NCBI GenBank assembly: GCA_021817415.1
Contig: JAKAUZ010000003.1
Span: 1-64,000, forward strand
Direction: 5' to 3'
DNA: 64,000 bases
Source of the DNA: Thermoplasmata archaeon
GTDB taxonomy: Archaea > Thermoplasmatota > Thermoplasmata > Thermoplasmatales > GCA-001856825
Shown: one piece after another, positions 6,688 to 33,807 of the stretch
Layout of the letters: each line of letters opens with the position of its first letter
How positions within the stretch are numbered: the stretch's first letter is position 1
Program-made: the position numbers and the translations under genes
Notes under the pieces: model-generated
Seen by the model: only the letters and a program-made list of their open reading frames with translations
The model's database searches: none
What the model was told of the DNA's origin: nothing

Positions 6688-6716
6688 AGCAAGGATTAAG
6701 ATTGATGGAGAGAACA
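6688..6716 (-). other. 3' arm of the pre-23S processing helix
   Basis: This segment pairs with 9635-9662 across the 23S gene: the core ggattaagat is repeated exactly in both arms in the pairing orientation, with small bulges on either side, followed by an imperfect extension. Archaeal rRNA precursors are cut in such a helix by the bulge-helix-bulge endonuclease. Confidence 0.7.
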
Positions 6717-9630
<2,914 letters not shown>

Positions 9631-9634
9631 ACAC

Positions 9635-9777: not shown

Positions 9778-10380
9778 TCAGGTCAGCTTTTTTCCTAGTC
9801 CCTGCTTGTTAATTATGTCAGCATATTTTTCCGGTAAAGTAACTATGTCTTCCTTCCTTAAAATAAGTTTGCGTCCCATGATGGAAACGTCTGGGATATC
9901 CTGAAGAATATGGACTATTGAGAATTTTTCTTCCTCTTTTTCTTCTTTCGTGTCAGTCACCTCGGGCTTTTCCGTTTTCTCTTTCTGTTCGTTCTTCTCC
10001 AGTATTATTTCCCCTTTTAGCAGCTCCTCAGAAAAATCAGAAACAGCATTGGAGAGGTTTTCATAAAATATCTGTTCTTCAGGGGTTAATTTCCCCTCTA
10101 TCATCTCCTTGTCACTCAATGCTCTTGCTTGCAATATTTTTGATATCCTCTGTTCCACTATTCGCTTAAGGAATCCTTCTGAGTCCTCCATTTCCTGGTT
10201 AAGCCTTGAGGCGGTCCTCGAATTCTTCTTTATTGTTTCTGTCTCTATTCTTGTCCTTAGGTCATCAAGATAGTTCTTAACGTCCTTATAGAAGGTGGAG
10301 GGAACCTCTGTGAGCTCTATATTCTTTATCTCCAGTCTAACCATTGAATTGAGGAAATTCCTGTTAATGTCCCCTTTCAT
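9778..10380 (-). CDS. GINS complex subunit Gins51
   Basis: A 200-residue subunit of the archaeal GINS complex, which joins MCM and the RecJ/Cdc45-like protein in the replicative helicase. The N-terminal A domain (about 1-120) is helical and charged. A Glu/Lys-rich linker (about 125-152) leads to a C-terminal B domain containing ILQDIPDVSIMGRK and VTLPEKYADIINKQGL, matching the 'QDIP-x-F ... DVVTLP ... A-x-x-L' signature of Gins51. The A-then-B order identifies Gins51 rather than Gins23. It starts 28 nt after the preceding ATPase gene, on the same strand, so it appears to be the last gene of the transfer-machine operon. Confidence 0.85.
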   Translation of the reverse strand: MKGDINRNFLNSMVRLEIKNIELTEVPSTFYKDVKNYLDDLRTRIETETIKKNSRTASRLNQEMEDSEGFLKRIVEQRISKILQARALSDKEMIEGKLTPEEQIFYENLSNAVSDFSEELLKGEIILEKNEQKEKTEKPEVTDTKEEKEEEKFSIVHILQDIPDVSIMGRKLILRKEDIVTLPEKYADIINKQGLGKKLT

Positions 10381-10408
10381 TTGCTGTCTATATATTCTAG
10401 AAATAAAG

Positions 10409-12445
10409 TCATTTCTTTTTTAGTTCCTTTTCTATTCCTTCGCTTACCCTGAGGAAAATATCTGGCAATCGGTTGGTGCCCTTGCCGCTTCCGCTGTACT
10501 CAAAGATCTCGAATCTGCCGGTGATCCCCTCCGTGTCAAGTCTCGTTCTTCCGACATAATGTACCTTTGGGTTGTTTCTTGACATTTCCTTGACTTCCTG
10601 GATTACTACCTTCTTTTCATATGTGTTCAGGTATTTTGCAAACACTTCAAAAACGAAAAATAAATTCTCGCATTCATCGAACAGTTCGAATATCCCTTGC
10701 AGTTTCCCTCTAAGTTCGTCTGAGCTTTGTTCTGTCACAAACTTGTAATTAGATACCGTGAAGCCGCTTTTACCTGGCGAAAAACTGACGGCATCAGTCT
10801 CCCCGCTTAATTGCATGCCTCCAGAGAGCAGGATGAATTTGCGCGGCTCTGAAGGAAATTGAAACTTCTCCCCCATGAAATTGACAAATTCATTCTTGTC
10901 CGGCTCTGTCATCCTGAAAATAATGTAATTTGATATATTCGAAAAGAACATTGCCTCAAGGTTTGATGAAATTCCCTTGAATGACGTTGTCACAAAGAAT
11001 ATTCTCAAACCAAATTTTCTACCTGAAGAAATCATGTCGGAGATGAGCCTAGATTGGTAGTCCTGGGCTTCTTCAAGGAAGAAGAAATAGTTTCCAGTTC
11101 TCCGCGTCGAAAGAAGGAACCATATGTATACTGCAAATATGTTTGACAGTATTCTGGAGTCTTCATAACCTATTATCCCCCTGTCTAAATTGATCAAGAT
11201 CAAGTCGTCTTCGTCCAGCGCCCCGTTCAGAATTCCATTGTCCTCAGGGTTGCAAATATATGACCTGATAAATGGATCCAAAGCTATTCTTCCTAGAGCC
11301 CTTTCCGTCCCTATGATCTCCTCCCTTGGTAGGGTCTCCAGTTCATCCAGGAAATCTCTTGTGCTGTCTTCAGATGCCAGCTCTCTTAATTTGCTTCTGG
11401 AGTCTTCGTTTTTTATTGCATTATAAAAGTCGCTTATCGTAACCTTTTTAACTTCCGTCATGGAATAAATGCCCCTCGAGATCAGGTCCTCCATTCTGGG
11501 GCCCACAAATGACTCCGTGTACTGCATTTCTCTCGTTGATTTCAATATTGAAACGAAATCCTCTGCCACTCTGTAGTTCACTCCTTTGCTCTCACTCGTT
11601 TTCAATACGTTGACGCCTGTACCTGACTGGGGAGAGATTGTGAACTTCTTCGCTTCAATTTTTTCCACCTGCCTTGAAGTATCACCATGAGGGTCTATCA
11701 GAATGACCTTTCCGAGTTTATTCTTGACTATTTCTGATATTATGTTCACAACCATTGTGCTCTTGCCACTCCCGGTCGAGCCAACCAGCAGTGAGTGGAA
11801 ATTTTTCTCATGATCAAGATATATGTCTCCAGCCTTCTTTGTAGTTCCTATCTTTATTCCATTCTGCCCGGACGGGTTCACCTTTGACGGCAGAAAATAG
11901 TTTATTTCCCATATGGCAAGGACTGGGTGATTGAACCCCCATTTAGTTGCTTTAGTGCGGATGGAAGGGCCAGAGAAAATGTGTTTCAGGTACCCTCCTA
12001 GTGCTGCATTCTCGAATTTTGCTATAACTTTCCAACCATGTCTCTCCCTCATCTTCTGGAAGTTTTCGTCAAATACCAACTTGTCATGTTTCTTTGAAGA
12101 TGTGAAATGGTGCGACCTGAAAACAAATTCAATGTAACCTGCCTCTTCCTCATTAAGAAGCTCTGAAATTCTGTCTCCTATGTTTTGTTCTGGTAGGATG
12201 AGAAACCTTGAGTCGCCATTTACCACGATCTTCCTCCCCTTCCTTTTGAAGTCGATTTTATTTCCGATTATGAATCCGCTGCTTTGGAAAACTCCTGCAC
12301 TTTCCTCATTTACGTAGAATCTGGACGGGCAACCCTTCTCCTTTAAAAATAGCAATTTCAGCACCTTGCCGCTTTTGAGATATGAAATTAGAAATGGATT
12401 TCCCTGAACGATTCGTGTGGAACTCTCAATCCTTGCGTAAGCCAT
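10409..12445 (-). CDS. VirD4/HerA-like DNA-transfer ATPase
   Basis: A 678-residue P-loop ATPase of the FtsK/HerA/VirB4-VirD4 superfamily. Walker A is GSTGSGKST (222-230), followed by a strand with LIDPHGD (249-255), typical of DNA-pumping ATPases that bind the next subunit. Walker B is FFFLEEAQ (454-461), and a polar VTTSFKG segment (485-491) is a sensor-like motif. The 200 N-terminal residues form a separate domain without obvious membrane segments, so if it is the coupling protein it lacks the usual anchor. The start overlaps the VirB4-like gene by 20 nt. It may be a second VirB4 or a CedB/HerA-type pump rather than a true VirD4. Confidence 0.75.
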   Translation of the reverse strand: MAYARIESSTRIVQGNPFLISYLKSGKVLKLLFLKEKGCPSRFYVNEESAGVFQSSGFIIGNKIDFKRKGRKIVVNGDSRFLILPEQNIGDRISELLNEEEAGYIEFVFRSHHFTSSKKHDKLVFDENFQKMRERHGWKVIAKFENAALGGYLKHIFSGPSIRTKATKWGFNHPVLAIWEINYFLPSKVNPSGQNGIKIGTTKKAGDIYLDHEKNFHSLLVGSTGSGKSTMVVNIISEIVKNKLGKVILIDPHGDTSRQVEKIEAKKFTISPQSGTGVNVLKTSESKGVNYRVAEDFVSILKSTREMQYTESFVGPRMEDLISRGIYSMTEVKKVTISDFYNAIKNEDSRSKLRELASEDSTRDFLDELETLPREEIIGTERALGRIALDPFIRSYICNPEDNGILNGALDEDDLILINLDRGIIGYEDSRILSNIFAVYIWFLLSTRRTGNYFFFLEEAQDYQSRLISDMISSGRKFGLRIFFVTTSFKGISSNLEAMFFSNISNYIIFRMTEPDKNEFVNFMGEKFQFPSEPRKFILLSGGMQLSGETDAVSFSPGKSGFTVSNYKFVTEQSSDELRGKLQGIFELFDECENLFFVFEVFAKYLNTYEKKVVIQEVKEMSRNNPKVHYVGRTRLDTEGITGRFEIFEYSGSGKGTNRLPDIFLRVSEGIEKELKKK

Positions 12446-14030
12446 TGACTATTCTCATCTCCTCCGGATTTGACCTGATTCTCAATATAGAATTGTATCC
12501 CGGCATCTTCAGCATGGCAAGAGAATCTTTCCCGTTAAAGCCCGCACCATTTCTGAGGAAGTCATCAAGTTTCTCGTCAATGTTGTAAAATTCTGCCATC
12601 TCCCTTGTTATGTTCTGGTGTTTTAACAAAACGTGTATTGAGCAGTTTTCGAGGACAGAAACGGTAGATTTTGATCTGGTGAAATCGTTTGCGGACTGTG
12701 ATATGAGGATCATTGATACGTTTCCATGCCTCGCGTGTCTCAGGTATCTCTCCAGGGTGCCGACGGTATCATCCTGCAATAGATAATGTGCCTCGTCTAT
12801 CACGAGATTCGTAATGTCTGAGTCATGCGATCTCATAATCAGATCTAAAGAGAGCAGCATGTAGAACGGTAGCAACCTCTTAGGCACATTCCCCAGATTC
12901 ATCACGATGTCTCCAGTGAGGTCTGGGTTTTCTCCAGAAATGAACTTCCTTAACGACCCTTCAAATAGTGGTGAAATAATGTTGTAAGTTTCAATTCTTT
13001 GTTTCCTGATATAATCCTGTAGGAATTGCAGGTTCTCCCCCTTCTCATACATTATAGTAAGTGCTGTGTCTATCACCCCTCTATCTTCTGTTTTTAATTC
13101 AAAAAGTGACATCAGCAGGGCCAGAGAGCGATCTACATTTTCCTTTACCGTAAGAAATTCCACCTTTTCAAGCATGCTCATTTTTAGGTTCATTAGATCC
13201 ACATTAGTTGAACCAAGTGCCTCTCCAAGGCTTTTGTACTCATCAAGTGGGTCGATGATCTTTATTCTGACCTTCCTTGACACTTTTTCCCTAAACATGG
13301 TAGTCTTGACGAAGAAGGATTTCCCAAAACCGGTCATTCCAACGACCAATTCGTGTGAAGAAGGAAATTTGCTCCTTTCAATGAATACGGGGGCATTTGT
13401 CAATTCGTCAATCCCATAAAATGTCCCCCCACTTTGGAAAAGGTACCCGTTATTAAAAGGAATTATGTGTGCCGCAGAGGCAACATTCAAGTATATTCCA
13501 TCCAATTTGCCCTCTATTATTTGATTCCTGACCCTGCTATCGCAAGATATCTTAACCACAGGCCTTACTCCAATGTTCCTGAGATAGTTGATAGATAATT
13601 TCTTCGTACGTCTGAGTTTAATTGGTTCCCCCCGTATGAAATAAGCCATGGAATACTTCACAATGGTTTCTTTCCCTGATGCAACGTCCTCCTTCAATCT
13701 ATTGAGGTTATCCAGCATTATCTTATGATTCTCTGTCTCCCTGTCACCAATTCTCTGCTTTCCAGTAAGATTCAGGAAGAGTTTCTCCAATTCCCTATTC
13801 AGCAAATTCCAGGTGTTTCTTTCAGGAACAGGATGTATCTGTATTATCTGTCCCACCTGTGGATTTTCAGTCGCCAATTTAAGCTTGAAATTATCCCTCA
13901 GTTCGAATGGCATATCTTTGATTTCAATGTACGTTATCGCCTTGCCTTTCCTGACTAAGTAATCTTCCTTCTGGAACGACTTTATGACGGTGCTAGATTG
14001 AGCTTCCAATATATTCTTCCTCCTCTTCAC
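12426..14030 (-). CDS. VirB4-like type IV secretion ATPase
   Basis: A 534-residue VirB4/TraC-like ATPase expected to power pilus assembly or DNA movement at the membrane. Walker A is GMTGFGKS (231-238), Walker B is LVIDEAH (409-415), and an arginine-containing LRHARHG with LISQSAND follows as in VirB4 proteins. The 220-residue N-terminal part corresponds to the VirB4 N-domain. It overlaps the upstream VirB3/PrgI-like gene by 38 nt and the downstream ATPase by 20 nt, so translation is probably coupled. VirB3-like and VirB4 genes are adjacent or fused in many type IV secretion systems, supporting the call. Confidence 0.8.
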   Translation of the reverse strand: MKRRKNILEAQSSTVIKSFQKEDYLVRKGKAITYIEIKDMPFELRDNFKLKLATENPQVGQIIQIHPVPERNTWNLLNRELEKLFLNLTGKQRIGDRETENHKIMLDNLNRLKEDVASGKETIVKYSMAYFIRGEPIKLRRTKKLSINYLRNIGVRPVVKISCDSRVRNQIIEGKLDGIYLNVASAAHIIPFNNGYLFQSGGTFYGIDELTNAPVFIERSKFPSSHELVVGMTGFGKSFFVKTTMFREKVSRKVRIKIIDPLDEYKSLGEALGSTNVDLMNLKMSMLEKVEFLTVKENVDRSLALLMSLFELKTEDRGVIDTALTIMYEKGENLQFLQDYIRKQRIETYNIISPLFEGSLRKFISGENPDLTGDIVMNLGNVPKRLLPFYMLLSLDLIMRSHDSDITNLVIDEAHYLLQDDTVGTLERYLRHARHGNVSMILISQSANDFTRSKSTVSVLENCSIHVLLKHQNITREMAEFYNIDEKLDDFLRNGAGFNGKDSLAMLKMPGYNSILRIRSNPEEMRIVNGLRKD

Positions 14031-14574
14031 TCACTTTCCTGTAAGTAAGGCCAGCAGCACCTACTGACTTCTCGAAATCCTCTGAATGATTTTTCTTTAC
14101 GGCGATGAAATAAGCGTCAACGTAAAATTCCTCTTCGTTGAATAGACTATCATATTCCCCCCTTCCAACAATATATCTTTCGACCGGGAATCTGTAGGGG
14201 AACCTTATGAGAAGAAGATCATTTTTGAAATTGTTCAGCAGGGTGATCCATTGTTCAAGTATCCCCTTATCCTGGGGTTCAGAGAAGCTGAAAGTCATGG
14301 TAAACAGTTCGTAAAGATCGTATTCCTTGCTTAAAGTGGTAAGTATAACTTCCTCTCCACCCTTTATTTTCTTGAAGAGATACTCATCGAGGAAATCATC
14401 CCCGATGCGTAGCAGTAATACAGGAGCTAATAAAGTGACTACTGCACCCCACATTCCGAAAATAAAAAGGGATATTATCAGAATTCCAGCCAGCAGGAGA
14501 GCTCTGAATAATATAGCATCACTCAGTGGCCCTATTTTCAGGGAGCTCGTCTTGAACTTAAGAAGTCTTGTCAT
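13993..14574 (-). CDS. VirB3/PrgI-like membrane protein of the transfer operon
   Basis: A 193-residue protein. Two closely spaced membrane segments (ILFRALLLAGILIISLFIF and WGAVVTLLAPVLLLRI) lie at about 20-57, preceded by a short basic tail and followed by about 135 cytoplasmic residues. The two-segment start with a 'DDFLDEYLF' turn fits PrgI/VirB3 proteins, which anchor VirB4. The remaining domain may correspond to part of the VirB4 N-domain. It is encoded between the VirB6-like gene (1-nt overlap) and the VirB4-like gene. Sequence similarity is weak, so the call rests on topology and order. Confidence 0.6.
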   Translation of the reverse strand: MTRLLKFKTSSLKIGPLSDAILFRALLLAGILIISLFIFGMWGAVVTLLAPVLLLRIGDDFLDEYLFKKIKGGEEVILTTLSKEYDLYELFTMTFSFSEPQDKGILEQWITLLNNFKNDLLLIRFPYRFPVERYIVGRGEYDSLFNEEEFYVDAYFIAVKKNHSEDFEKSVGAAGLTYRKVSEEEEEYIGSSI

Positions 14575-15698
14575 CAGGATGCCTTCCCTAACGTGGAAGA
14601 ATGTGAATTATCTTCGTGAAAAAGTGGTTCCTTTGGATTTCCATTTGCAATTGGTTTGAAAAACATTGATTCGGAGTAACTCTGCTGCTTGGTGCTTGAG
14701 AGCCTATCCGAAAATTGTCTGATCGTTCCAGAGGTCTCTTTTTTTGAAGCCGAAATCTGACTGATCAGCTGAGCTCCTCCGCCATAAGCAGTAGTCGCTG
14801 CAGTCATTGCCGTTCTGTAGCCTGTTTTGGCATAACTCATTGACTTTTGGGCAGCGGTTGAGACAGATTGACCGAGAAATAGTCCTGCAATCTTTGAGGA
14901 ACCAGATTTAGACAAAAGTATAGGAATAGCGTCTGTCAGCGCCAGGAAACCCAATGTCAACATGCTGTTATTTTTGACATAAGTTGATAGAATCAGGGGA
15001 AAGGCCATCAGAACTGGGGCAAATACGGAATCAATGAATATATCCCAGCTTCTCTTAGCAAGCTCCTGTGTCTGTGGAAGTAAGTAGAAAATGGAGAAGA
15101 TTGGAAGAATGATGGGAAATGTGTAAAGAATCGCCAGTCTGAATGCAAGGTAGATTAGGAGGAAAAGCATAAGAAAAATGAATATAACAAGAATCAGGAA
15201 ACTTACATCGGCGCCAGCACTACCACCGAGTTGTAAGCCTCCCAGAATGTTGTTACCATTTGCAAAATTGTGATTGCTCCCCCCATAGGTCCAAAGAGTG
15301 GAATATATGATTCCTGCCAAGAATATCAAGTCCTCTGCCAGAAAGAAGGCCAGGTTTGAAACAATAATTATAAGTAGAATTTTAATCCAAATATGTTTCA
15401 GATTGTACCCCAGATTCAGGCTGCTGTTCAAAAGTATTAATATCCCAAGTGCCACCAGTATCAGCGTCAGTACCGGGTCATATATCTGGAATAATGTGTA
15501 ATAGTAAAGATACTGCACCCCGCTTCCAAGAGTTCCCGAGGTGATATTGGGGTATGCTTCACCTGGGCGCAATAGATCCCTAGATATGAACTGGTTATAG
15601 AGTGAGACGAGTATTGGCCTTGCTGCCAGGACTACTGCAGAAATAACGTAGCCTAGAGCCTTGACTATTGCTGATACTATTGTCCCAACGATATCCAT
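14574..15698 (-). CDS. VirB6/TrbL/CedA-like polytopic membrane protein
   Basis: A 374-residue membrane protein with about seven or eight transmembrane segments between residues 5 and 290, a loop rich in Gly and Asn (GGSNHNFANGNNILGG) at about 145, and an 80-residue cytoplasmic tail rich in Ser, Thr and Lys. A pair of long helices after residue 165 (VSFLILVIFIFLMLFLLIYL) and a conserved-looking RSWDIFIDSVFAPVL stretch fit the VirB6/TrbL type, the membrane channel core of type IV secretion and of the archaeal Ced/Ted importers. It follows the pilin gene after 12 nt. The family call is by topology and context. Confidence 0.65.
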   Translation of the reverse strand: MDIVGTIVSAIVKALGYVISAVVLAARPILVSLYNQFISRDLLRPGEAYPNITSGTLGSGVQYLYYYTLFQIYDPVLTLILVALGILILLNSSLNLGYNLKHIWIKILLIIIVSNLAFFLAEDLIFLAGIIYSTLWTYGGSNHNFANGNNILGGLQLGGSAGADVSFLILVIFIFLMLFLLIYLAFRLAILYTFPIILPIFSIFYLLPQTQELAKRSWDIFIDSVFAPVLMAFPLILSTYVKNNSMLTLGFLALTDAIPILLSKSGSSKIAGLFLGQSVSTAAQKSMSYAKTGYRTAMTAATTAYGGGAQLISQISASKKETSGTIRQFSDRLSSTKQQSYSESMFFKPIANGNPKEPLFHEDNSHSSTLGKAS

Positions 15699-15710
15699 AT
15701 CAGATCTTCG

Positions 15711-16055
15711 CTATCCGACCACTATGAAATGCACCACTGCGTAGAGCACTCCGCTGATCGCCATCACGAAAAGTACGGTACCGATTAAGGCGTCCTTGGT
15801 CCTCTCCTTTGCATCTGCCTTTCTGTCAAGGTCCTTGGAAAAGTACCCGACCGCTATAGGAACCCACAAGATGGCAATTATAAGCCCAGAAACTCCCGCC
15901 ACCAATCCAAATGCTCTTTGTACGATGCCATTTATTTGAGTGGAGTTATTAGTAACAGCTGGTGCTTTTATGTCCAAATTCGCCTGGCCATGCACAATTG
16001 TAACAGGCATAGAGACTGCTAATACTGCTATTAGCAGTATGCTTAACATTTTCAT
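15711..16055 (-). CDS. VirB2/TrbC-like pilin
   Basis: A 114-residue protein expected to form a conjugation-type pilus. The ATG at 16055 is chosen over the upstream start at 16088 because a purine-rich Shine-Dalgarno stretch (gaggagggg) precedes it and it gives a clean signal peptide (SILLIAVLAVSMPVTIVHG) with cleavage likely after HG or HGQA. The mature part has a polar N-terminus, a first membrane helix (GLVAGVSGLIIAILWVPIAV), a basic loop (DLDRKADAKERTKDA) and a second helix (GTVLFVMAISGVLYAVVHFI). Two helices joined by a short basic cytoplasmic loop is the VirB2 topology and unlike archaeal type IV pilins with class III signals. First gene of the operon. Confidence 0.7.
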   Translation of the reverse strand: MKMLSILLIAVLAVSMPVTIVHGQANLDIKAPAVTNNSTQINGIVQRAFGLVAGVSGLIIAILWVPIAVGYFSKDLDRKADAKERTKDALIGTVLFVMAISGVLYAVVHFIVVG

Positions 16056-16063
16056 GTTCACTG

Positions 16064-16112
16064 CCCCTCCTCGGACGTAATGGTGCACTTGTATTAAAAT
16101 TTTATTCTCGTC
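16064..16112 (-). promoter_or_regulatory. Promoter and ribosome-binding site of the pilin operon
   Basis: On the minus strand an A/T-rich TATA-like stretch (aataaaattttaatac, about 16091-16107) precedes a strong SD-like gaggagggg (16064-16072) ending 8 nt before the ATG at 16055. A clear SD is notable in a window where most first genes look leaderless. Confidence 0.55.
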
Positions 16113-16151: not shown

Positions 16152-16346
16152 TTGGAAGTGGAAGAAAAGTGCGACGTAACAGGGTGCATCAACCCAAAAT
16201 TTAAGACTGTGAGTCGTAAGGAAGCTGATAAGCTATTCTCACTGGGAACTTCAAAGACAAAAGTCCACCTATGCAAAGAGCATTACAAGAAGTTCAAGAA
16301 GGAAACAAAGGAAGACAGGAAGATTGAGAGGCTGAACTGGGTCTAA
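16152..16346 (+). CDS. Small zinc-finger-like protein
   Basis: A 64-residue basic protein from a TTG at 16152 (a GTG at 16158 is equally possible). Potential zinc ligands are KCDVTGC at the N-terminus and HLCKEH in the middle, giving a C-x4-C ... C-x2-H pattern. The C-terminus is a highly charged helix. It is likely a nucleic-acid or protein-binding zinc module. It lies between the divergent pilin operon and the regulator-top6 operon, 29 nt before the latter. No named family is recognised. Confidence 0.6.
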   Translation: MEVEEKCDVTGCINPKFKTVSRKEADKLFSLGTSKTKVHLCKEHYKKFKKETKEDRKIERLNWV

Positions 16347-16375
16347 GTATATTAGTTAATTGATTATATTCTCAT

Positions 16376-17149
16376 ATGAGAAATATTCTTGAGCTGAGAG
16401 ATAAAGGGGCATTTACCAGGGTCCTCGTACTGATTGAACTGCTCAAGGGGAAAAAGAGATTAAAGGAAATTTCCAGTTCACTGAATATAACTCCTCAGGG
16501 AACGTCGTTATACATCAAGAATCTCCAAAAAGAAGGACTGGTTGACAAAAAACTTGATCCAACCACTCACGGAGTTGCCTTTATTCAGAAGTTTCTTGCC
16601 AATCTGTCAAATTTCGTGGATGAAGCCTACGGAGAGACTGGAATTATATCAAGTTGCGAGGCGATCGCCTCAGGGAAGATCAACAAAAAAGACAGAGTGT
16701 TCCTAAGAATGGAAGATGGAATGCTTATCGCATCCAAGGATGTAAAATCATCATCCTCTGGAATCTCGACGCAAGATGCAGCAAAGGGGGATCCACTCAT
16801 AGTCAGTAATCTCGAAGGAATCATCGAAGTCAAAAGAGGATATTTCTACTTCCTCCACGTAGACATCTCCGATTATCATAATGACGAAAAATTGAGGAGA
16901 ATTAAAAAATTCGTTGAAAAAAATGATATTACCGTTATAGGCTCATTTGGAATAACAGCAAAAACATTTTGCGATAGGGCAAATTTAGGCTCCAATATAC
17001 TTGCGCCTGTTGAGACATGCATTGAAGGATCGGTCAAGGGGATGAATTCTTTGCTGGTGTACTCCCAGGAAATGGCAAGCTTTTTCTTCCAGAAAATGGC
17101 AGCAAATGTAAATAAATACAGAATTAATCCCAAATCCGTTGAAATATGA
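16376..17149 (+). CDS. Winged-helix transcriptional regulator of the top6 operon
   Basis: A 257-residue protein with an N-terminal winged helix-turn-helix (about 10-65; KEISSSLNITPQGTSLYIKN) and a long C-terminal domain of about 180 residues that is probably a ligand-binding or dimerisation module (GSFGITAKTFCDRANLGSNI). It resembles a conserved archaeal family of predicted regulators found across Euryarchaeota. Its stop overlaps the start of top6B by 4 nt (ATGA), so the two are co-translated. Its target and effector are unknown. Confidence 0.7.
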   Translation: MRNILELRDKGAFTRVLVLIELLKGKKRLKEISSSLNITPQGTSLYIKNLQKEGLVDKKLDPTTHGVAFIQKFLANLSNFVDEAYGETGIISSCEAIASGKINKKDRVFLRMEDGMLIASKDVKSSSSGISTQDAAKGDPLIVSNLEGIIEVKRGYFYFLHVDISDYHNDEKLRRIKKFVEKNDITVIGSFGITAKTFCDRANLGSNILAPVETCIEGSVKGMNSLLVYSQEMASFFFQKMAANVNKYRINPKSVEI

Positions 17150-18915
17150 AACAGGTAATCCCGGAAAGAAAAGCTGTAAGCATCTCAGAATTCTTTGACA
17201 AGAATAAGCAGATGCTGGGTTTTGACTCCCCGCAAAAAGCTCTGTTTATGACTGTAAAAGAGGCGGTAGACAACTCTCTAGACGCCTGCGGAGACTTTGG
17301 CATAATGCCTGAAATTACCGTGGTAGTTGAGAATGTTGAGAACGATAAATTTAGGGTGACCGTCGCTGACAATGGTCCTGGAATCCCGAGAAGGGAAGTT
17401 GCTGATTCCTTTGGAAAAATGCTCTACGGTTCCCGTTTTCATATTGTGAGACAGACTAGGGGCCAACAGGGGTTAGGGATTTCGGCCGCCATAATGTACG
17501 CCCAGAAGACTACAGGCCAGCCAACAGAAATCTGGACAAAAACAAAAGATGACCTAACCGGATTTCATTTTGTTATGGAAATAAACATAAAAAGGAATGA
17601 GCCAGACGTACACAAAGTTGAACCTTTTGTTTGGAATGTTGAAACAGGGCTCAGGATTTCTCTTATTTTGAAAGGGAAGTTGGTTTCCGGGAAGCAGTCA
17701 GTGGAGGAATACATCAGGGAAACAGCAATTGCAAACCCCCACGCTACATTCCATCTCTCTCTCCCGGATAAGAAAATAGACCTGATCAGAAGCGTGAATG
17801 AGAGCCCCGTCATTCCTGTTGCAGTCAAGCCACACCCACATGGAGTGGAGCTGGGCGAGCTGATGTCCATATTCAGGGAAAACGAGGATGCGCCGATTGA
17901 AAAGGTGCTGTCTGAGAATTTTTCCAGGGTGACTTCGCAGACAGCAAAGGAGATAATAGGGCTGGCAAACCTCAAGTCTGCAAAAATATCATCGATGACC
18001 CAGAAGGAATTTGAGATTCTGTGGAACGTAATGAGAAACTACCAGTTCATGGAACCCAATAAGGAATGCCTTTCTCCTATTGGTGAGGAGGCGCTTTACA
18101 AGAGCGTATCAAATGCTTTCGATGATCTTCACCCTGCTTACTTCTCGATGCCGGTGACTAAGGGGCCATTCGTTTTTTCTGGGCATCCATTCACCATAGA
18201 AGCCATTGCTGTCTATGGTGGGAATATACCAAAAGAAGAGCCAGTAAAGGTTATGAGATTCGCAAACAGGGTCCCCCTTCTATATCAACCAGGTAGTTGT
18301 GCGATTACCAAGGCAATTTCGACCGTAGCGTGGAACCAATATGGATTGTCGCAACCTGTGAAGGACCAGCTCCCAATTGGACCGGTAATAATTGTTGTTC
18401 ACATTGCCAGCACAAAGATCCCCTACACGTCCGAGGCAAAAGAAGCCATTGCCCCTGTTCCTGAGATACTTGAAGCACTTGATATCGTGCTAAAGGGAAT
18501 TGGAAGACAGATCAGGGCAATGAGGAGGAAAGAGGAGCACAAAAGTCACATCGAAGAGAAATTCTCCCTTATAGAGCAAATCCTGCCTGCCATAGGTTCC
18601 AAGGCTGCATCAATACTAAAACTGGAAGAACCAGATATCCGTCCCATCATCTCAAAAGTCATGGGAGTGATTGCTTTCAGGGAAGAGGAGGGAAAACTTA
18701 CAGTGACTAACTTCACAGAGACTCAAAAGAGCTTTGCTGTAGTCCTAAAGGGGGAGAGAGAAGAAAGGGAAAATGTGAAGAACCTTAGGCCTTTTGAAAA
18801 AATAACGCTGAGATTCTCAAGAGAAATGATTGATTCGTCAGAAATTTATGCCGGACTTCCTGATAAACTTCTCCTTGGAGCTTATTCTTTGCCGGAGGTG
18901 TTCAAGAATGAATGA
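17146..18915 (+). CDS. top6B: DNA topoisomerase VI subunit B
   Basis: A 589-residue ATPase subunit of the type IIB topoisomerase that relaxes and decatenates DNA during replication. The GHKL (Bergerat) fold motifs are present: the N-box with VDNSLDA (41-47), DNGPGIP (75-81) and GQQGLGIS (106-113). They are followed by the H2TH insert and the transducer domain with a Lys-containing SCAITKAIS segment. Length is at the short end for the family, which can carry an extra C-terminal domain. It overlaps top6A by 8 nt (ATGAATGA). Confidence 0.97.
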   Translation: MKQVIPERKAVSISEFFDKNKQMLGFDSPQKALFMTVKEAVDNSLDACGDFGIMPEITVVVENVENDKFRVTVADNGPGIPRREVADSFGKMLYGSRFHIVRQTRGQQGLGISAAIMYAQKTTGQPTEIWTKTKDDLTGFHFVMEINIKRNEPDVHKVEPFVWNVETGLRISLILKGKLVSGKQSVEEYIRETAIANPHATFHLSLPDKKIDLIRSVNESPVIPVAVKPHPHGVELGELMSIFRENEDAPIEKVLSENFSRVTSQTAKEIIGLANLKSAKISSMTQKEFEILWNVMRNYQFMEPNKECLSPIGEEALYKSVSNAFDDLHPAYFSMPVTKGPFVFSGHPFTIEAIAVYGGNIPKEEPVKVMRFANRVPLLYQPGSCAITKAISTVAWNQYGLSQPVKDQLPIGPVIIVVHIASTKIPYTSEAKEAIAPVPEILEALDIVLKGIGRQIRAMRRKEEHKSHIEEKFSLIEQILPAIGSKAASILKLEEPDIRPIISKVMGVIAFREEEGKLTVTNFTETQKSFAVVLKGEREERENVKNLRPFEKITLRFSREMIDSSEIYAGLPDKLLLGAYSLPEVFKNE

Positions 18916-19978
18916 GAAACTAAAGGATTTGGTGAAGAAAATATACGATGAAATGGCAGCAGGACAGGTGCCAAAAGTTGAGTTGAAATCCAGGAATAAG
19001 GAAAATATTGTGTTTGACAATTTATCTGGGGTCTGGAAATATGGAAATAACATTGTTAGCAGATATGCGTCCAAAGCAAGTTCTGCAAAAAGCATCCTGA
19101 AAATGCTTTACATCATGGACTTCATTGATGAAATGGATGCTGGTGGAAAGACCTCAACTCTGAGAGAGATGTATTATATCTCCGAGGGATGGAATCTGGG
19201 GAAGTTTGAGAGCCAGGATGAGTCTGACCTGATGACCGAGGATCTGGAGGTGATAACGAGCCTTCTAAGGGAGGAGATGAGGCTCAGGCCTGAAGAGAGC
19301 GGTGCTTCGGTTATTGGAAACATCACCCTGAAGGAAATGAACAGGAAAGGTGAATGGAAGAGACTTAACTGCAGGGATGATGTGGGGGATGCTGGTTACA
19401 CAATACCCTACAATGTTGAGCCCGAGAAAATACAATTTGAGTCACATGACGTTGATTTTGTGCTGGCAATCGAAACAGGAGGTATGTTTGACAGACTTGT
19501 TGAAAATAGGTTTGACGAAAAGATGAGAAGTCTTCTCGTTCACGTGAAGGGACAGCCTTCTAGGAGCACCAAGAGATTGATCAACAGATTAAACAAAGAG
19601 CTGAACGTTCCCATAGTGGTATTCACGGATGGGGACCCTTGGAGCTTCAGGATATTTGCTTCAATTGCCTATGGCGCAATAAAGACCGCGCACATATCCG
19701 ATATTCTGGCAACACCGAGTTCCGAGTTTGTTGGGATCACTGCCACCGACATCACGAGATATGATCTCCCTACAGATAAGCTGAGTGATAAGGACGTAGA
19801 GGCACTAAATGCAGAATTGGAAGACCCTAGATTTAACATTCCATTCTGGAAGGGGGAGATAACTGAAATGCTGAGACTTGGAAGAAAGGCTGAACAACAG
19901 GCGCTCGCCAAGTATGGCCTTGATTTCGTTACCGACAAATACCTTCCGGAAAAACTGAGAGAGATTGGGACTATATGA
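18908..19978 (+). CDS. top6A: DNA topoisomerase VI subunit A
   Basis: A 356-residue catalytic subunit homologous to Spo11. The ATG at 18908 is chosen because it overlaps the top6B stop and avoids a 26-residue leader read from inside top6B. The 5Y-CAP domain carries the active-site tyrosine in the REMYY motif (86-90). The Toprim domain carries the Glu in AIETGGMFDRL and the DxD in FTDGDPW. All catalytic residues appear present. Downstream, an MFS transporter starts within its stop codon (ATGA). Confidence 0.97.
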   Translation: MNEKLKDLVKKIYDEMAAGQVPKVELKSRNKENIVFDNLSGVWKYGNNIVSRYASKASSAKSILKMLYIMDFIDEMDAGGKTSTLREMYYISEGWNLGKFESQDESDLMTEDLEVITSLLREEMRLRPEESGASVIGNITLKEMNRKGEWKRLNCRDDVGDAGYTIPYNVEPEKIQFESHDVDFVLAIETGGMFDRLVENRFDEKMRSLLVHVKGQPSRSTKRLINRLNKELNVPIVVFTDGDPWSFRIFASIAYGAIKTAHISDILATPSSEFVGITATDITRYDLPTDKLSDKDVEALNAELEDPRFNIPFWKGEITEMLRLGRKAEQQALAKYGLDFVTDKYLPEKLREIGTI

Positions 19979-21126
19979 AGAGAGTCCCCATTATCGTCCT
20001 CGCAGCCCTTGCCGGTTTTTTCGCTCTGGGGGACAGATATGCAATTTCGGTGATGTATACCCAGTTCATGACAAATTATGGAATAAGTTCAAAAGTCATA
20101 TTTTCAATCCTTTTCTCATCATTCTACATCGGCTACACCATAATGCAAATACCTGGAGGAAAGCTTTCTGAGAGATTTGGCCCTGCAAGAATATCAGGGA
20201 TTTCCCTCGTTCTATGGTCTATATTCCTATTACTGCTGACGGAGGAGAGATCCTTTGGGGAGGCAGTGGTTCTCGCATTTCTTATGGGCTTATCCCAGGG
20301 GCCGATATTCCCATCCATCATGTTCCTTGTAAGACTGCATTACGACGACGAAGAATATGGTAAGGCAACTGGGTATGTTTCATTCCTTGCAGATATGTCA
20401 CCAGCCGTGGTGCCGTTTGTTGCATTTTCACTGTTCAAGTTGGAGCCAGTCCTCATCTTTCCAATCGCGATCTTCGTAGTTGCGGGAATAATAACTGGGA
20501 CGATCCTCACATTCCTGAAGACAGAATTCAAAAAGATAGAGCAAAAAGCCAGATGGTCAATTCTGCGGAACCCTAATTTGTGGATATTTGGAGTTACATT
20601 TTTTCTCTATGACTTCCTCTTCTACGTCTTCCTGACATGGTATCCATCATTTCTTGTCGACAGATATGGAATTGAGCAAGGGAACTTTGTGTTCTATTCT
20701 GCCCCCTGGATCCTGATGGGTTTTACCGCCATCATCTCAGGCTACATTTTAGATAGAGCCAAAAGAGATGCAGTTATAACTGTGGCATCCTATTTCGTCC
20801 TTTTCTTCTCCATGATTTCGATCGCATTCTTCCATAACCAGTACATCTTCCTCATAATGGTGACAGTGATCTTATCTCTCCTTAATCCAATTCTTCTCTC
20901 TTCGTGGAGATATTCTACAAGGTTAGCTGGAAAAGATAGCTCGGCACTTGTTGGCGGATGGATGAATTCATGGGGGAATCTTGGTGGCATTGCGGCCCCT
21001 TTTGCCACTGCCTCCATTGCATCGCTTGTTGGACTCAACTCAATGTTCCTTTATTTCTCGTTTCTTTCGCTTATTGCAGGAATTTTATGGATACTCCTTA
21101 AGGTGAGACCTTATGAGAAGAGTTGA
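19975..21126 (+). CDS. Major facilitator superfamily transporter
   Basis: A 383-residue membrane protein with 11-12 predicted transmembrane segments. The loop after helix 2 has GGKLSERFGPAR, the MFS signature between helices 2 and 3, and a related GYILDRAKRDA occurs in the second half. This is typical of small-molecule importers or exporters; the substrate cannot be told. It is translationally coupled to top6A (4-nt overlap) and overlaps taw2 by 14 nt, so it is embedded in an operon of DNA and tRNA genes with no obvious functional link. Confidence 0.88.
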   Translation: MKRVPIIVLAALAGFFALGDRYAISVMYTQFMTNYGISSKVIFSILFSSFYIGYTIMQIPGGKLSERFGPARISGISLVLWSIFLLLLTEERSFGEAVVLAFLMGLSQGPIFPSIMFLVRLHYDDEEYGKATGYVSFLADMSPAVVPFVAFSLFKLEPVLIFPIAIFVVAGIITGTILTFLKTEFKKIEQKARWSILRNPNLWIFGVTFFLYDFLFYVFLTWYPSFLVDRYGIEQGNFVFYSAPWILMGFTAIISGYILDRAKRDAVITVASYFVLFFSMISIAFFHNQYIFLIMVTVILSLLNPILLSSWRYSTRLAGKDSSALVGGWMNSWGNLGGIAAPFATASIASLVGLNSMFLYFSFLSLIAGILWILLKVRPYEKS

Positions 21127-32108: not shown

Positions 32109-32651
32109 GTGCGAATAGGAGTGCTTGACATTCAGGGAGATGTTTCTGAACATGTTAATATCTTATCATCTCTGGGAGCAGATCCCGTCAGGATCAGGAA
32201 AAGCCCAGATCTGGAAAATGTTGATGGACTGATATTGCCTGGAGGAGAGAGCACCGTTATTGGAAAAGTCATGAAAGAACGAGGCCTTGTTGAATTGATA
32301 ATGAAGAAAAAGCTTCCTGTGATGGGTACCTGTGCAGGACTCATATTGATGTCAGAGAACGTAGATGGAGGAAAAGGCCTCCTTCCTCTGTTGGACATTG
32401 AAGTAAAGAGAAACGGTTATGGGAGTCAGAGGGAAAGTTTTGAAACAGACTTAAACATTGAAGGAATTGGCCAATTCCACGGAGTTTTCATAAGGGCACC
32501 AATAATTGTGAAGGTCAAAAAAGGTAGGGTGTTGTCTCAATATGAAAATTCTCCGATAATTGTCTCCGAAGGGAAACATCTGGGAATGACCTTTCACCCT
32601 GAAATATTTGGAGACGGAAGGATTCACAGAATGTTCATTGATTCAATATAG
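32109..32651 (+). CDS. pdxT: Pyridoxal 5'-phosphate synthase glutaminase subunit
   Basis: A 180-residue class I glutamine amidotransferase that supplies ammonia to PdxS for PLP synthesis. The nucleophile lies in VMGTCAGLIL, the oxyanion loop in LPGGESTVIGK, and the His/Glu pair in MTFHPEIFGDGRIH, with IGQFHGVFIRAP before it. The start is a GTG at 32109 with no room for an SD site, so it is probably leaderless. The partner pdxS is not in the window. Many PLP enzymes (glyA, aminotransferase) are nearby. Confidence 0.94.
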   Translation: MRIGVLDIQGDVSEHVNILSSLGADPVRIRKSPDLENVDGLILPGGESTVIGKVMKERGLVELIMKKKLPVMGTCAGLILMSENVDGGKGLLPLLDIEVKRNGYGSQRESFETDLNIEGIGQFHGVFIRAPIIVKVKKGRVLSQYENSPIIVSEGKHLGMTFHPEIFGDGRIHRMFIDSI

Positions 32652-32736
32652 AAATTTGAAGAATTTATTTATTCCTATGTCCTCATACCTATTTCAGTAC
32701 GATCACAGGTAAAGAAGGAATGGAATTAGAAGAATT

Positions 32737-33807
32737 TTACACCATTCTTGGTTTTGATAAGAGACATTTTCCTTCGGTCTTACCAGTCGAAACCACGACA
32801 TTCATCCCAACTTTTAAGTCGGAATCAAAATATCCAAGACCAATCCCCTTGGAAAGAGATGGAGAGAATGTTCCGGAAGTCAGGATACCAACCTCCTTAC
32901 CGTTCAATTTCACGATTGATCCATTTCTCGGAATCACCTTGTCTTCTGCCACAACTCCCCTGAACCTTCTTTTTATGTTGTCTTTCCTTATTTCAAGATT
33001 TTTCTTCCCGATGAAATCATGATCCCAGTCCAGTATCCAAGATACCCCGGCTTCAATTGGGTCTCTGTCTTCATTGAAATCCTGTCCCGAAAGCAGGAGT
33101 CCTTTCTCCATCCTAAGTGTATCTCTGGCTCCAAGACCAATCGGTTTCACATTCGCATTGCTCAACAGTTTTTTCCATGTGGCCACAGCGTATTCATTGG
33201 GAATGATAAATTCGAATCCCTCCTCACCGGTGTATCCGGTACTGGATACAATGGTTGCATCTTCTAATCCCGGTGATGGATACATTTCAGAGACGTTTGT
33301 CAGGGCGAAATGGTCAAGATTGTTTGCTTCCGGATGCAAATTTTTCATCACTTCGTGGGAGAGGGGACCCTGAAGTGCAAGGCATGACATTTTTGATGAA
33401 ATGTTGGAGATTTTTACCTTGAAATCCTTCTTGTTCTTTACAAGCCAAGCATATATCTTGTCTGTCGTAGCTGCATTTGGTACGACTAAGAACTTTTCTT
33501 CACTGATCTTGTTTGCAATAGTATCGTCTATCATTGCAGCATTTTCATTCAGGTATGCAGAATAAATTGCTTTCCCAATCCTTGATTTTGATAGATCAGT
33601 TGGAAGGAGATAGGAAAGGAAGTCCTGTGCATCTTTTCCTTCGATCATTATGTCTCCCATATGAGAAACGTCAAACAATCCTGCCTTCTGTCTAACTTGC
33701 CTGTGTTCCTCTATTATGCTGGAATACTGGATTGGCATTTCCCAGCCGTGAAAATCTACCATCTTTGCATTAAGTTTAACATGTTCTTCAAACAATGAGG
33801 TCCTCAT
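32737..33807 (-). CDS. gcvT: Glycine cleavage system aminomethyltransferase (T protein)
   Basis: A 356-residue folate-dependent enzyme that takes the aminomethyl group from lipoylated H protein and releases ammonia. The N-terminus has MVDFHGWEMPIQYSSIIEEH, the centre LALQGPLSHEVM and SSTGYTGEEGFEF, and the C-terminal barrel LLSGQDFNEDRDPIEAGVSW. These are the diagnostic family stretches, including the folate-binding Asp/Glu. No gcvH or gcvP is nearby. It stands alone, divergent from tRNA-Phe. Confidence 0.93.
   Translation of the reverse strand: MRTSLFEEHVKLNAKMVDFHGWEMPIQYSSIIEEHRQVRQKAGLFDVSHMGDIMIEGKDAQDFLSYLLPTDLSKSRIGKAIYSAYLNENAAMIDDTIANKISEEKFLVVPNAATTDKIYAWLVKNKKDFKVKISNISSKMSCLALQGPLSHEVMKNLHPEANNLDHFALTNVSEMYPSPGLEDATIVSSTGYTGEEGFEFIIPNEYAVATWKKLLSNANVKPIGLGARDTLRMEKGLLLSGQDFNEDRDPIEAGVSWILDWDHDFIGKKNLEIRKDNIKRRFRGVVAEDKVIPRNGSIVKLNGKEVGILTSGTFSPSLSKGIGLGYFDSDLKVGMNVVVSTGKTEGKCLLSKPRMV

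Follow-up and report, generated by a model that had tools for sequence, protein, structure and literature searches.

The Ced and Ted systems of archaea import or exchange DNA by means of a pilin, VirB6 and VirB4, without a relaxase (PMC9905601, PMC11868833). Within the open-licence literature, Ced and Ted, both of Crenarchaeota, are the only domesticated archaeal type IV secretion systems (T4SSs) described as serving DNA exchange, and VirB3 has been stated to be absent from archaea (PMC11868833). Genes for type II/IV pili, and pili, are reported for the acid-mine-drainage plasmas, including Iplasma (PMC3750248). For Cuniculiplasma, of the same archaeal order as the genome considered here, a VirD4-like protein, VirB4 and membrane proteins were listed in 2016, as components only, with no assignment of VirB2, VirB3 or VirB6 and no synteny or distribution (PMC5155288). 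We found no earlier description of the machine reported below in the open-licence literature.

The window (the whole stretch of 64,000 nucleotides that was analysed) derives from a member of the Thermoplasmatales, in the family of 'I-plasma', and a first-pass annotation had proposed that it encodes a T4SS-like machine composed of VirB2, VirB6, VirB3, VirB4 and VirD4; the comparisons below bear out this composition. The reading we prefer, with a probability of about 0.62, is that the five genes encode a reduced T4SS of ancestral origin, inherited with the chromosome, by which DNA passes between adjacent cells of these wall-less archaea. The features of the locus are as follows.

16091..16099, minus strand: putative TATA-like element TTTTAATAC, upstream of the pilin gene, read by eye
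15711..16055, minus strand: VirB2-like pilin precursor of 114 aa, with a signal peptide followed by two hydrophobic helices
14574..15698, minus strand: VirB6-like polytopic channel protein of 374 aa, assigned by predicted fold
13993..14574, minus strand: VirB3/PrgI-like protein of 193 aa, with a two-helix hairpin and an alpha/beta domain
12426..14009, minus strand: VirB4 ATPase, assigned by NCBIfam and PDB profile matches
10409..12445, minus strand: VirD4/TrwB-type coupling ATPase (HerA-FtsK superfamily) of 678 aa, without TM helices
9778..10380, minus strand: gins51 (GINS A domain followed by the B domain), 28 nt past the ATPase gene; a neighbour, probably outside the machine
6709..9634, minus strand: 23S rRNA gene (Rfam RF02540, 2783 bits), just downstream of gins51; context
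16152..21126, plus strand: divergent block encoding a small zinc-finger-like protein, an HTH protein, top6B, top6A and an MFS transporter, in an order kept across the family

All six minus-strand genes are open reading frames in the order and at the positions first proposed, and their coordinates in the window reproduce exactly the 12- and 28-nt gaps and the 1- and 20-nt overlaps. A further overlap of 38 nt between the VirB3 and VirB4 genes holds if VirB4 starts at the GTG at 14030, which is possible, but is reduced to 17 nt with the TTG at 14009, which we prefer because both the relatives and a GGAGG site point there. The pilin start likewise appears better placed at the ATG at 16055, which gives the same 114-aa product as in the relatives, than at the GTG at 16088, as judged from the relatives' alignment and a GGAGG at 16070-16066. 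The six-gene order, together with the divergent top6BA upstream, is found again in 10 further genomes of the family, with protein identities of 24-75%, and is far from chance, and the 23S rRNA gene adjoins gins51 in every family contig of sufficient length. We note that the small conserved zinc-finger-like protein encoded beside the machine (window 16152-16346) is also found near a VirD4-type gene in another family (L063:2850-3044; L072:9604-9801), and that the pdxT- and gcvT-like genes of the window (32109-33807), which are 16 kb away from the operon, have counterparts near the machine in family f3 (L033; L034).

The pilin has a signal peptide, called by eye, and matches the T4SS_pilin model PF18895 with an E-value of 4e-5, just below the Pfam cut-off. 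Of 18 orthologues, 15 match the same model (best 1.7e-8) and 14 match the NCBIfam mollicute-ICE pilin NF045849 (best 2.5e-7), so that by profile the protein qualifies as the VirB2 pilin of a T4SS in the broad sense. In family f4, pilin-domain proteins form tandem arrays upstream of the VirB6 gene (L037:12826-17685, L038:1926-5678), several of them with about 200-300 additional N-terminal residues. The pilin frame of I-plasma (L026:6802-7147) is interrupted by a one-base difference in a G run, which may be an assembly error.

The protein in the VirB6 position has no Pfam, NCBIfam or significant PDB match by sequence. Its AlphaFold2 model has a pLDDT of about 85 over residues 1-265, and a Foldseek search of the whole PDB returns TrwI/VirB6 of R388 as all of its best five matches (probability 0.92-0.99), with the sixth at 0.16. 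The E-values are modest (0.06-0.2), and the weight therefore rests on five of five unprompted matches being the same protein. The predicted structure now supports its identity as VirB6 and with it the presence of a T4SS channel.

The 193-aa VirB3-like protein has two TM helices that form a hairpin. In hhalign comparisons it matches its positional equivalents in two other families with an E-value of 4.8e-8 over 178 columns, and more weakly those of a third family (4.3e-5 over 101 columns). Among the equivalents in two other families, four of eight weakly match PF12666 (PrgI), the best at 0.0023. Two relatives of other genera encode this domain and VirB4 as one polypeptide, with the VirB3-like part at the N-terminal end (residues 3-152 and 29-162); in one of these fusions a CagE_TrbE_VirB domain follows at 248-384. 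A 639-aa protein of genome G035 (a single contig of 1,564,906 bases), with two N-terminal TM helices and an N-terminus free of profile matches, looks like a VirB3-VirB4 fusion too. The AlphaFold model of the window protein is of low confidence (pLDDT 63) and gave no meaningful match in a PDB fold search. Profile homology and these natural fusions nonetheless support the assignment as VirB3, which speaks against the stated absence of this component from archaea.

The VirB4 protein matches the NCBIfam models conju_CD1110 (1.3e-32) and VirB4_plasma (2e-23), both under their equivalog cut-offs, and the PDB profile of VirB4 4ag5 (1.9e-8), and by these matches can be taken as the VirB4 ATPase of a broadly defined T4SS. 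The VirD4-type protein matches DUF87 (1.2e-13) and, marginally, TrwB_AAD_bind, at 20.8 bits against a cut-off of 20.5; the latter domain is clear in the sister-genus orthologue (32.8 bits) and in homologues from other families (33.6 and 54 bits). With TrwB_AAD_bind at or above its cut-off throughout these proteins, a VirD4/TrwB coupling protein is indicated, for which no TM helix or anchor is predicted. Against the CedB model, whose equivalog cut-off is 700, VirB4 scores 16.9 bits (E 0.002) and the VirD4-type ATPase 36.6 bits. The VirD4-type ATPase scores about equally with the CedB and CD1110 models, and its place within the HerA/FtsK superfamily is therefore not fixed. In two other loci (L060:6175-8157, L061:561-2540) a VirD4/CedD-like ATPase gene directly adjoins an apparent archaellum operon.

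The block and its divergent top6BA are present in 11 genomes of the family, the window's and that of I-plasma (ATMD01000002) included. In a twelfth genome, gins51 and the last part of the ATPase gene lie close to the end of a contig, and three genomes have neither the machine nor gins51, a shared absence that suggests assembly gaps. Across the order, the pilin is found in 93 of 117 genomes and VirB6 in 92 (27 of 33 genera; about 80% of genomes), and the two genes are almost always neighbours by their coordinates. In a sample of 390 genomes of the phylum, those with VirB6 are 44 from the order and 19 from a single further family of the same class. Presence is patchy in family f4, where the machine is missing even from a complete genome (G021). 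Values of dN/dS among close relatives are 0.055-0.22 for the machine genes, which are under purifying selection, and 0.13 for gins51. Trees of the machine and of the flanking Top6/HTH proteins have their deep splits in common, with supported differences within genus g2; the same trees give the machine proteins a rate of evolution about 2-3 times that of their Top6/HTH neighbours. Both the homology of the parts and their vertical inheritance are shown.

Could the locus be a recently integrated conjugative plasmid or ICE? The VirB4 protein has distant relatives on conjugative and mollicute plasmids, but the best of the plasmid matches listed are just 21-25% identical, and the G+C content of the operon (0.42) is close to that of the window (0.43). 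No relative of the locus was found in IMG/VR, and neither of the two relaxase families searched, PF03432 and PF08751, is found in the genome, which is 89% complete. Because archaeal conjugative plasmids too are reported to be without recognisable relaxases (PMC9905601), this absence alone cannot separate the explanations. The locus is, however, common to the whole family, and its deep tree splits track the host; the mobile, patchy presence of a conjugative plasmid or ICE is not seen. Recent integration is already contradicted by these observations and seems to us scarcely credible, and the original view of the block as chromosomal and unlike a newly arrived plasmid stands. Purifying selection, a host-like deep phylogeny and the lack of an IMG/VR relative or of either relaxase family therefore point to an ancestral, domesticated machine.

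For gins51, a special link to the machine had been suggested. Its product matches Sld5 (E 8e-4) and Gins51_C (0.018), both below the cut-offs, and NCBIfam Gins23 (2.7e-13), also below cut-off; the A-then-B domain order of GINS51 is present, as read from these weak matches. One could propose that the operon and gins51 work as one unit, with GINS either loading a helicase onto the DNA that arrives by transfer or helping to produce the strand that is transferred. The genes share a strand, and the gap between the ATPase gene and gins51 is 28-29 nt in eight of 11 genomes, and in a ninth the two overlap by 20 nt (genera g1/g2); co-transcription in these two genera is plausible. The gap widens, however, to 169 and 266 nt in genus g3, and gins51 has different neighbours in four genomes of other families (L065-L068). 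Moreover, G004 of genus g2 is colinear with the window over most of the roughly 48 kb between 9.8 and 58 kb, and g3, the most distant genus, over about 24 kb, from gins51 to 33.8 kb. With the whole region colinear across the family, adjacency to gins51 is the default state, and for this reason we rejected conserved adjacency as evidence for a link. An upstream ATGA start for gins51 in genus g2 was likewise rejected, as a stop interrupts it in L021. The special link is thus not upheld, a shared functional unit is improbable, and gins51 is probably an ordinary neighbour rather than a part of the machine. Improbable to a slightly greater degree is the broader idea of an ancestral DNA-exchange machine with VirB3 that is carried by most Thermoplasmatales and, in the family of the window, is tied to replication by being co-expressed with gins51; if true, such an ancestral exchange machine would explain gene exchange in wall-less acidophiles.

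For the five-gene machine itself, intercellular DNA exchange is the likeliest function by homology to conjugation and to Ced/Ted, and it is by analogy with these that we infer DNA as the substrate, the direction of transfer and the formation of a pilus. A plausible scenario, modelled on the homologues, is that the pilin would be exported, lose its signal peptide and be pulled into a narrow conduit or a contact pilus. The membrane pore would be formed by VirB6, beneath which the VirB3-like protein would hold VirB4, the source of power for building the pilus and for passage. Single-stranded DNA would be carried to the channel, or taken from it, by the soluble VirD4-type ATPase. Since there is no recognised relaxase, the substrate may be chromosomal DNA from host repair nucleases, used for recombination.

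The main rival is a T4SS-derived adhesion or contact pilus, or a protein-secretion device, that no longer moves DNA. The missing relaxase families would fit such a device, and the long N-terminal extensions of the f4 array pilins could be large domains suited to adhesion. Patescibacteria offer a parallel, with chromosomal T4SSs that are mostly without a relaxase and apparently not used for conjugation (PMC12102498). The coupling ATPase is also not universal: among the four families examined it is encoded next to the machine only in that of the window, and many f4 and f6 genomes are without a strong homologue, so that a DNA-specific role may not be universal. Set against this is the TrwB/VirD4-type coupling ATPase that, in the window's family, is encoded in the operon and is itself under purifying selection. 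In addition, the machine of family f6 adjoins genes reading as trm1, UbiA and GGGP synthase, and the VirD4 gene of family f3 adjoins UbiA and GGGP synthase genes (names by eye), a correspondence that suggests that the link between VirD4 and the machine is old. We consider loss of DNA transfer unlikely, if a serious contender, and keep DNA exchange as the preferred reading. If the machine moves DNA, the principle of Ced and Ted reaches beyond their own archaeal phylum to an order of acidophiles, and supplies a mechanism by which genes could be exchanged among them.

Comparability with Ced and Ted was part of the original proposal, and it survives in that the machines may work alike; membership in either group is not shown, and the models nearest to the VirB4 and the pilin are those of conjugative elements of Firmicutes and mollicutes, not CedB and CedA1. 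Ted, of the Thermoproteales, shares with this locus a pilin with a signal peptide, VirB6-like and VirB4-like proteins, a nearby HerA-like gene and a chromosomal location (PMC9905601). It belongs to another phylum, and the block here differs in having a VirB3-like protein, in encoding its coupling ATPase within the operon and in being without a ParA/MinD or Rad50 gene. Ced, of the Sulfolobales, has a pilin, a VirB6-like protein and two VirB4/HerA-like ATPases (CedB, CedD), and no relaxase, as here (PMC11868833), but the VirB4 of the window falls well short of the CedB equivalog score and the block contains no Ups pilus gene. The T4SSs of Patescibacteria are similarly lineage-wide and chromosomal, with VirB2/3/4/6, mostly no relaxase, and pilin arrays (PMC12102498). 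They belong, however, to bacterial epibionts in which no VirB3-VirB4 fusions were found, whereas fusions are present in this archaeal order; the fusion arrangement is also known from other bacterial systems. By profile scores the closest systems for the VirB4 and the pilin are the minimal ones of monoderms rather than Ced: the two proteins score best with models from mollicute ICEs (Mbov_0395/0397-type) and Firmicutes ICEs (CD1110-type) of the MPF_FATA class. Unlike monoderm ICEs, the machine described here is chromosomal, vertically inherited and without a recognised relaxase, and all of its sequence scores are under the curated equivalog cut-offs. The T4SSs of monoderm ICEs nevertheless have the same reduced set of VirD4, VirB4, VirB6 and a VirB3-like protein (PMC12857230), and the hosts of the mollicute ICEs, like the archaea considered here, are wall-less.
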